A stretch of DNA of 64,000 nt from Gemmatimonadaceae bacterium (GTDB lineage Bacteria > Gemmatimonadota > Gemmatimonadetes > Gemmatimonadales > Gemmatimonadaceae): contig JADZAN010000047.1 of assembly GCA_020852815.1 (NCBI GenBank), forward strand, positions 1-64,000, given 5' to 3'. Both the position numbers and the translations under genes were made by a program. The notes under the pieces were generated by a model. The model ran no database searches. It was not told the origin of the DNA and worked only from the letters and a program-made list of their open reading frames with translations. This document shows, in pieces, positions 5,734 to 32,063 of this stretch. Position 1 is the first letter of the stretch. Each line of letters starts with the position of its first letter.

Positions 5734-7031
5734 TCAAGACGCAGAAGACGAGAAGACGAGAAGACAAGAGCGTAGCGAGCGCCCCAGCGAAAGCCGGGGC
5801 CCATGCAGCCGAGGGGCGCAGCCTCGGGCACAAGGCGTCGCGCATCGGGGCGACGGTGAAGCGCGCCTCTGCGTCGGGGCCCAAGTCTTCGCAGAAGAAG
5901 GCGGCCGAGGCGCGGGAGAAGTCGGGGAAGGCGCACACGGCGGGGGCGGCGTCGCGCTTCCTGCGCGGCGGGCGCATCGATCCGCGCAGGATCAACGGGA
6001 AGGAGAAGGTCGTCGACCTCATCGACGGGACGTACCTCGCCTACAACGGCGGGCGGCTCCGCGAGGCGTGCCAGCTCTTCACCGAGAAGATGATCGACCC
6101 CTCCGTCACCATCGGCCTCACCATGACCGGTGCGCTCACGCCGGCCGGGCTGGGGATGGCGGCGGTGATCCCGCTCATCGAGGCGGGTTTCGTCGACTGG
6201 ATCATCTCCACCGGTGCGAATCTCTACCACGACACGCACTTCGGGCTCGGGCTCGCCATGCATCGCGGCAACCCGCAGACCTCGGACGTGATGCTGCGCG
6301 AGGAAGGGGTCGTGCGCATCTACGACATCTTCTTCGACTACGACGTCCTCCTCTCCACCGACGCCTTCTTCCGCGCTGTGGTGCAGGGGCCGGAGTTCCA
6401 GCGCGCCATGTCGAGCGCCGAGTTCCATTGGCTGTGCGGAAAGTACGTGCGCGAGCGCGAGCGCAAGCTCGGAATCGGGCAGAAGTCGCTGCTGAGCGCC
6501 GCCTACAAGTGCGGCGTCCCGATCTACACCTCGTCACCCGGTGATTCGTCGATCGGGATGAACATCGCGGCGCTCTCGCTCGACGGGAACAAGTGCACCA
6601 TCGACCCCAACCTCGACGTGAACGAGACGGCGTCGATCGTCCTCAACGCCAAGCGTACCGGGGGAAAGAGCGCGGTCTGCATCCTGGGTGGCGGTTCGCC
6701 CAAGAACTTCGCGTTGCAGACGGAGCCGCAGATCCAGGAAGTGTTGGGCATCGACGAGAAGGGGCACGACTACTTCCTGCAAATCACCGACGCGCGCCCC
6801 GACACCGGGGGGCTGTCAGGTGCAACGCCGGCCGAGGCGGTGAGCTGGGGAAAGATCGACCCCGATCGCCTCCCCGACGCCGTGGTCTGCTACCTCGACT
6901 CGACGGTCGCGCTCCCGCTCCTCACGTCGTACGCGTTGGCAAAGAAGGCCAAACGCCCGCTGCGCCGCCTGTATGACCAGCGCGAGGCGATGATGGCGCG
7001 CCTGCGCAGCGAGTACGAGAAGACCAGGTAG
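5730..7031 (+). CDS. Deoxyhypusine synthase-family protein
   Basis: 433 residues from a TTG at 5730 with GGAGG 4 bases upstream, overlapping the previous stop. Family features: a nicotinamide-cofactor Rossmann core ([27 protein letters not shown]) and EAVSWGKI, whose Lys375 matches the enzyme-imine lysine of eukaryotic deoxyhypusine synthase (human Lys329). Bacteria lack eIF5A, so a polyamine substrate (homospermidine-type chemistry) is the usual suggestion for bacterial members; that is inference. The first roughly 85 residues are not family-like, and about the first 25 are translated from the dispersed repeat at 5740-5800. The coupling to a LOG enzyme is noteworthy. Confidence 0.85.
5740..5800. 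repeat. GAAGACGA / CCCCAGCGAAAGC repeat inside a coding start
   Basis: Three GAAGACGA-type units are followed by a CCCCAGCGAAAGCCGGGG hairpin, the same composite element found at 35938-36122 and, hairpin only, at 2466-2552. Here it lies just after the TTG start and Shine-Dalgarno sequence of the deoxyhypusine-synthase homologue and stays in frame with it. Confidence 0.75.
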
Positions 7032-8528: not shown

Positions 8529-8686
8529 GCGCGAAGTGTAGCGGGTGCGTTGCGGAGGTGCGTGCGGCGGTGCGTTGCGGCGGTGCGCGAGTCGATGCGT
8601 GCGTCCCCATCTCCACCCCGCCCCCCGCGCCCCGTCGCCCGAGAATTGAAATCGGTACACGACGCGCTTAGGTTTCATCCAGCGAC

Positions 8687-8727
8687 GCGCCCGGCCACCC
8701 TCAGACGGCCGGGCGCACCCTTTTATT
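8687..8727 (+). terminator. Terminator-like hairpin in the greA leader
   Basis: GCGCCCGGCC (8687-8696) pairs perfectly with GGCCGGGCGC (8707-8716), followed by ACCC and TTTT at 8721-8724. The gene upstream runs the other way, so this structure does not end a known gene. It lies 15-55 bases before the greA ATG and may attenuate greA transcription. The TTTTAT stretch could instead be part of a promoter. Confidence 0.6.
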
Positions 8728-8741
8728 GCCGGTAGGGTCCC

Positions 8742-9218
8742 ATGCTCGAAGCCCTCAAGCACAAACTCGGCGCCGAAGTCGAGAAGCTCCAGCACGAGCT
8801 CAACGTCACGCTCCCCAACGAGATTCGCAAAGCGGTCGAGCTGGGGGACCTGCGCGAGAACTCCGAGTACAAGGCGGCGCTCGAGCGCCAGCAGTTCGTG
8901 CAGGCGCGCCTGGGACAGCTGCGCCAGCGCCTGAGCAAGCTCGCGCAGGTCGACATGTCGATGATCCCGGCCGATCGCGTCGGCCTGGGCTCCAGGGTCA
9001 AGGTCGTGTGCCAGGACACGCAGGTCACCGAGTCGTACACCCTCGTCTTCGGCGACGCCGATCACTTCGACGACGGGCACGTGACCATGTCGTCGCCCAT
9101 CGGGCGTGCGCTCATCAACAAGGCGGTGGGCGAGGTTGCCTTCCTCAAGCTCCCGGCGCGCACGCGCAAGCTCAAGATCATCGAGTTGATCACGATCCAT
9201 CAGGCCGAGGAGCTGTAG
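8742..9218 (+). CDS. greA: Transcription elongation factor GreA
   Basis: 158 residues, the normal size. The N-terminal half is the antiparallel coiled coil that enters the RNA polymerase secondary channel; its tip carries the acidic pair in GDLRENSEYKAA, which supports cleavage of backtracked RNA. The C-terminal half is the FKBP-like domain (GSRVKVVCQD ... SPIGRALINKAVGE). GreA rescues arrested polymerase and lowers promoter-proximal stalling. A weak GGTAGGG ribosome site precedes the ATG. A terminator-like hairpin in the leader suggests attenuation. Confidence 0.95.
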   Translation: MLEALKHKLGAEVEKLQHELNVTLPNEIRKAVELGDLRENSEYKAALERQQFVQARLGQLRQRLSKLAQVDMSMIPADRVGLGSRVKVVCQDTQVTESYTLVFGDADHFDDGHVTMSSPIGRALINKAVGEVAFLKLPARTRKLKIIELITIHQAEEL

Positions 9219-31830: not shown

Positions 31831-32063
31831 AATTGGGGTCAGGGAAAATTGGGGTCAGAGTCAGCGAGAATTTGGTTCGCTGACTCTGACCCCAATTTTA
31901 GGGCGACCTCAATTTGACGAGGCGCGGCGGCCCCACACGCCCTCCAGGCTATGCCTCGAGCGCGAGCGAACCCTTGATAAGGGTATTGGGATCGTGCGCC
32001 GCGCCCCCCGAACTTGGGGTCAGAGTCAGCGAGAATTTGGTTCGGTGACTCTGACCCCAAGTT
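31831..32063. repeat. Two copies of a palindromic TTGGGGTCAGAGTCA element
   Basis: Copy 1 has a perfect 23-base stem, 31845-31867 with 31877-31899, around a 9-base loop, preceded by an extra AATTGGGGTCAG at 31831-31842. Copy 2 pairs 32011-32028 with 32046-32063. Where copy 1 has AATTGGGG / CCCCAATT, copy 2 has ACTTGGGG / CCCCAAGT, changed on both sides so pairing is kept. The sequence resembles repeats tied to REP-associated Y1 transposases (RAYT); no transposase is in the window. The 111 bases between the copies (31900-32010) show nothing recognisable. Confidence 0.8.

Follow-up and report, generated by a model that had tools for sequence, protein, structure and literature searches.

A conserved hairpin with an offset U-run in the greA leader of Gemmatimonadaceae, a likely attenuator of the GraL kind

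In Escherichia coli the leader of greA yields short terminated RNAs (GraL). In one study of this system the GraL hairpin was placed at +19 to +48, catalytically active GreA was found to repress greA through GraL, and GraL was found to act in trans also (PMC6829880). The same source reports GreA-dependent autoregulation in vivo only, and not in vitro, invokes an unknown extra factor, and includes mutants of GreA residues D41 and E44. Attenuators in greA and rnk leaders have been described by Naville and Gautheret with a clear antiterminator in each case (PMC2965389); the available sections of that paper do not name Gemmatimonadota, and no report of a greA leader in Gemmatimonadota was found in the open-licence literature. 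The kind of element described below is known; its lineage, sequence and offset U-run are new here.

The analysed DNA (the window) was a stretch of 64,000 nt from Gemmatimonadaceae bacterium GCA_020852815.1 (contig JADZAN010000047.1, positions 1-64,000, forward strand). The greA gene, coding for a transcript cleavage factor of RNA polymerase of 158 amino acids, lies at 8742-9218 on the + strand, and its product matched NCBIfam TIGR01462 (E 5.5e-32; 110.9 bits, below the curated cut-off of 139) and the Pfam GreA/GreB domain PF01272 (56.9 bits, above the cut-off of 26.9). The GDLRENSEY motif is retained, and D36 and E39, which presumably correspond to D41 and E44 of the E. coli protein, were invariant among 16 aligned relatives. 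By protein search GreA was present in 55 of 60 relatives. The protein was missing from G027 and from two genomes of one genus (G001 and G002, 74% and 99% complete, respectively), the latter two having no match to the GreA/GreB Pfam family either; these absences may reflect an assembly gap or a real loss. The 5' neighbour of greA is a divergent metallo-hydrolase-like ORF on the - strand (family matches under their cut-offs), and the nearest + strand gene further upstream is a homospermidine-biosynthesis-like ORF (568.8 bits, above cut-off) that stops at 7031. With the minus-strand ORF lying between, this agrees with the sequence-only reading, according to which no gene on the same strand ends at the hairpin. 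Elsewhere in the window, two long palindromes (31845-31899 and 32014-32060) sharing TTGGGGTCAGAGTCAG in inverted pairs look like a REP-type doublet; they lie behind ORFs which we take to be copper-ATPase-like and CsoR-like.

The greA leader holds an inverted repeat (8687-8696/8707-8716) with arms of 10 nt that are 100% complementary and a loop of 10 nt, forming a stem-loop on the + strand (8687-8716, gCGCCCGGCC-loop-GGCCGGGCGc) that is further marked by family conservation, compensatory changes and an excess of G-U over A-C pairs. It is followed by a spacer, ACCC (8717-8720), and by a U-run, TTTT (8721-8724), and the greA ATG (8742) lies 25 nt past the stem end. The perfect 10-base stem and TTTT first read before the ATG were thus borne out by the sequence and by the inverted-repeat search. 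The stem energy was -23.2 kcal/mol, and folding of the 80-nt leader only modestly beat that of shuffled sequences (z -1.55; 12 of 200 shuffles equally good). In an Rfam search of the window nothing reached gathering score, the best sub-threshold match having 15.7 bits against a required 45; Rfam families likewise include short hairpin RNAs, but the greA-leader element had no match among them at that score.

What places the hairpin above chance is its conservation rather than its folding energy. A strong hairpin followed by TTT was present in 92 of 100 distinct greA leaders of the family, compared with 39 of 1,000 dinucleotide shuffles and 12 of 100 opposite strands, the definition being 7 or more stem positions, no more than one of them mismatched, an energy of -14 kcal/mol or lower, and TTT within 8 nt. 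The 100 leaders were drawn from 32 loci of one set and 78 of the 80 of another (two being without a leader), with identical ones merged. When oriented, almost all family members showed a near-identical stem 5' of greA. Eight leaders failed the criterion (L016, L018, L028, L075, L106, L130, L133 and L136), among which L018 and L136 kept the hairpin with an A-C mismatch and L130 had a stem without a T-run. A second draw comprised 99 genomes of the family, belonging to 35 genera; greA was found in 90 of them and its leader could be examined in 89 (in G108 it runs off the contig). Among the covariance-model matches listed, the greA leader was the best of its genome in at least 72 of these 89 and a lower or tied match in at least 4, and inspection of the remaining leaders by eye gave 6 more with hairpin and T-run, one with the hairpin only (G105) and 6 with neither (G008, G009, G064, G085, G102 and G103). 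The total with hairpin and T-run in this draw was 82 of 89, a count that is not independent of the 92 of 100 since many genomes were common to both sets. Conservation of the hairpin before greA in relatives, which had been put forward as a check, was accordingly found in both draws.

The presence of the hairpin varied with the gene upstream of greA. It was found in 47 of 48 leaders with a divergent neighbour, in 25 of 25 behind a codirectional gene of homospermidine type, in 6 of 11 behind a gene that we assume to be of LOG type, in 12 of 14 with other neighbours and in 2 of 2 on short contigs. In four of the five leaders that lack it behind this LOG-type gene, the match to that gene ended just 39-104 nt before greA, which suggests cotranscription with greA. 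The hairpin is mostly missing if another gene ends a short way upstream of greA, and this pattern links it to the promoter of greA itself. These counts bear on an alternative in which the hairpin terminates an upstream transcript at its 3' end, or acts as a roadblock insulating greA from read-through. Such a role would be in keeping with some other families of the class, in which a hairpin and T-run lie between an apparent tRNA gene and greA, and with other model matches in family genomes, which are often 3' of genes. However, no codirectional gene end is nearby either here or in the 47 hairpin leaders with a divergent neighbour, the predicted greA promoter lies in between, and the hairpin is mostly lost precisely where a codirectional gene ends closest to greA. 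A terminator of the upstream gene was rejected on neighbour orientation, and the alternative as a whole appears highly improbable.

Selection on the stem was assessed in an alignment of 93 family elements (sense matches only), taken from matches of a model that included the T-run. The ten stem pairs formed in 96.3% of cells, and changes on both sides of a pair were seen in 16 cells, a number reached by none of 500 shuffles. An A-C opposition on one strand would be a G-U pair on the other; G-U cells numbered 56 and A-C cells 13, 8 of the latter at the loop-closing pair. Counting label changes on a GreA tree, a fairer measure than the cell-count statistic, which ignores descent, gave 37 for G-U against 10 for A-C (34 against 4 without the apical pair) and about 11 changes between Watson-Crick types. 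The large excess of G-U over A-C indicates that selection acts on the folded RNA of the greA strand. Loop length ranged from 2 to 11 nt across the alignment.

The U-run was examined in 82 leaders picked by the core CGCCCG...CGGGCG alone, a choice that drops leaders with changed cores; the 93 of 93 with TTT in the alignment were set aside, as the model behind it already included the T-run. TTT was present within 10 nt of the core in 82 of 82 leaders; for the three stretches that follow, the counts were 14 of 79, 3 of 41 and 2 of 17. Its distance from CGGGCG had a median of 6 nt and a standard deviation of 0.73, while the distance from the U-run to the ATG had a standard deviation of 14.7 in the same 82 leaders; the U-run therefore belongs to the hairpin, being fixed relative to the stem and not to the ATG. 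These properties also decide against two readings that do not involve termination, namely that the stem is a palindromic DNA operator or that the U-run is a standby site for ribosomal protein S1. The stem is indeed a DNA palindrome close to both promoter and start codon, but a loop varying from 2 to 11 nt is unlike that of operators and the asymmetry of G-U over A-C needs RNA, and the operator was rejected on both grounds; the S1 site was rejected because the U-run follows the position of the stem. Taken together, the two readings are extremely unlikely.

By classical measures the hairpin is a weak terminator, as the U-run is short and offset by 4 nt. T was the commonest base 4-9 nt past the stem in 92 leaders, and the gap between stem and TTTT was 4 nt here and had a median of 4 in 74 leaders, against a median of 2 for other terminators of the same loci (7 cases only; Mann-Whitney p 0.037). 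In a canonical intrinsic terminator the U-tract directly follows a GC-rich stem, which is not the arrangement of the greA leader, and it was not listed by a strict terminator scan, in which 5 or more T are required in an 8-base stretch that begins 0-2 after the stem. A d'Aubenton-Carafa-type score was above zero in 17 of 92 leaders and not above zero in 75, with -33 for this leader. E. coli GraL, used as a positive control (stem at +19 to +47 from P1, 7 T after 1 nt), scored about 0, and by this measure the present hairpin is the weaker of the two. A pause signal of the his type (a pyrimidine followed by G, about 11 nt past the stem) is found here, with no clear column signal across the family.

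The top-scoring site in the leader under a hand-made sigma70-like matrix was TTGAAA, a 17-nt spacer and TAGGTT (8646-8674, + strand), a predicted housekeeping-type promoter of greA. The best sigma70-like site was placed with the end of its -10 box 8-20 nt upstream of the stem core in 66 of 91 family leaders, compared with 494 of 1,820 shuffles, and was elsewhere in the other 25; the spacer was 17 nt in 55 of the 66, among which TTGAAA-17-TAGGTT scored highest. A generic promoter scan (at least 9 of 12 matches) did not list 8646-8674. Stem-aligned leaders were enriched in A+T around -22 to -13 and again around -45 to -37, and purines were favoured at -9. Transcription is predicted to start at 8681-8682 on the + strand, about 7 nt downstream of the predicted -10 box, the base itself being uncertain, since the purine position at -9 from CGCCCG (91 leaders) falls here on 8679, 2 nt further upstream, which is a C. 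An RNA with the predicted start would reach the stem after about 6 nt, and if it ended in the U-run its length would be about 44 nt. A greA transcript beginning downstream of 8720 would have refuted the sequence-only reading; judged by the sequence, the best promoter-like site is upstream of the hairpin. From the predicted -10 box to the greA ATG there is no ATG or GTG and one TTG (8726), so no leader peptide is apparent in this genome. An ATG or GTG was found just 5' of the stem in 32 of 92 family leaders, so a leader peptide may occur elsewhere in the family.

A stem this close to the predicted 5' end could instead be a stabilising hairpin guarding the greA mRNA from 5'-end-dependent decay, with no role in termination. 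About 6 nt from the end is where such stems act, and the low terminator scores would fit; yet the fixed distance of the U-run in all 82 core-bearing leaders is left unexplained, as are the fixed letters of the stem, and we regard this account as quite unlikely. The stem letters were held, and drift is seen in the loop and in the remainder of the leader. Judged from the alignment, this fixity goes beyond pairing needs, and termination alone does not appear to explain it; it may be the mark of recognition by the polymerase or a factor, or of a trans-acting role. For the latter, a small RNA of about 44 nt that acts in trans would be the main product, and read-through into greA would be secondary. 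Near-invariance of the stem letters across the family beyond pairing needs speaks for this, and so does the action of E. coli GraL in trans (PMC6829880); but conservation is lacking in the loop and 5' tail, through which such RNAs usually pair, a GC-rich stem makes a poor seed, and the strict element is single-copy in the genome, at greA. Such an RNA is very unlikely to be the main product.

The 5.38-Mb genome contains a single copy of the exact stem, and a looser stem motif with T-run is also single-copy; weaker covariance-model matches exist elsewhere in the genome (second best 33.5 bits against 41.4). Of 20 places matched by the model in family genomes and inspected, three were greA leaders and many others were hairpins after ORFs, gene calls at these places being mechanical and made from third-position G+C. 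A generic terminator repeat of the genome was rejected on this basis, the strict motif occurring once only and the other matches being different hairpins, many of them 3' of genes. One further match (L227:1504-1550) lies about 22 nt 5' of an ORF that looks like, and which we take to be, hisG, and is possibly a his leader hairpin.

Outside the family the hairpin was patchy, being present in 11 of 27, 0 of 6, 5 of 20, 4 of 5 and 1 of 5 greA leaders by group in other families of the order or class, with different stem sequences. In the group with none, one family of the order (L043, L046 and L048-L051), a TAGGAT-like -10 box lies a few bases 5' of the greA ATG, and the greA messages therefore look leaderless. 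In another family (L270-L272, L278 and L287) greA lies 3' of the end of an apparent tRNA gene, and the four hairpins with T-run among its five leaders fall between the two.

Set against E. coli GraL, the locus shows a divergent upstream gene, a promoter, a hairpin near the RNA 5' end, a U-run and greA in the same order. A terminator-like hairpin with a U-run lies between the predicted greA promoter and the start codon, and it is conserved with greA across species, as the definition of a GraL-like element has it. The stem sequence is, however, unrelated to that of GraL, in which 7 T begin 1 nt past the stem and the start codon follows about 100 nt on, compared with 4 T after 4 nt and an ATG 25 nt past the stem here. 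The suggestion of a GraL-like attenuator made in the sequence-only reading holds in that a conserved hairpin downstream of a promoter-like site makes it the best explanation, and is weakened by the short, offset U-run and the weak terminator score. The hairpin is likely to be a promoter-proximal partial terminator or pause site (attenuator) of the GraL kind.

For such an attenuator, RNA polymerase would start about 6 nt upstream of the hairpin, and the GC-rich hairpin would fold as soon as it is made, with the polymerase then on the U-run 5-8 nt downstream. A fraction of the complexes would release the RNA of about 44 nt, and the rest would read through into greA. The greA leaders of PMC2965389 have an antiterminator, whereas here the hairpin would be preceded by no more than about 6 nt, given the predicted start. 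By inspection, so little RNA would leave no room for an antiterminator, and with no leader peptide apparent in this genome, control would pass through the polymerase and its factors. If termination is adjusted, the signal would most likely be the state of the polymerase: pausing, backtracking, or bound GreA or other factors. GreA acting at the leader would give negative feedback on greA itself; control of the leader by GreA is a plausible conjecture from the present analysis, though one we hold with less than even confidence. A more specific form, in which GreA activity is sensed directly by the combination of fixed stem letters and a U-run 5-6 nt behind the core, is unlikely. The strong, GC-rich upstream portion of the RNA-DNA hybrid would then prevent plain release, and the weak rU-dA end would make the polymerase backtrack by a few bases. 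The backtracked polymerase would be a GreA substrate, cleavage by GreA would pick release or read-through with no other RNA structure involved, and the stem sequence would be read by the polymerase or a bound factor.

Through incomplete termination, the hairpin probably limits the output of GreA in Gemmatimonadaceae, as is the case in E. coli. Even there, the way in which GreA limits its own synthesis is unsolved (PMC6829880). A version in another phylum that is minimal and very conserved, and in which the hairpin has hardly any RNA ahead of it, would offer a natural reduced test system, and it suggests that a partial terminator before greA is a recurrent solution.
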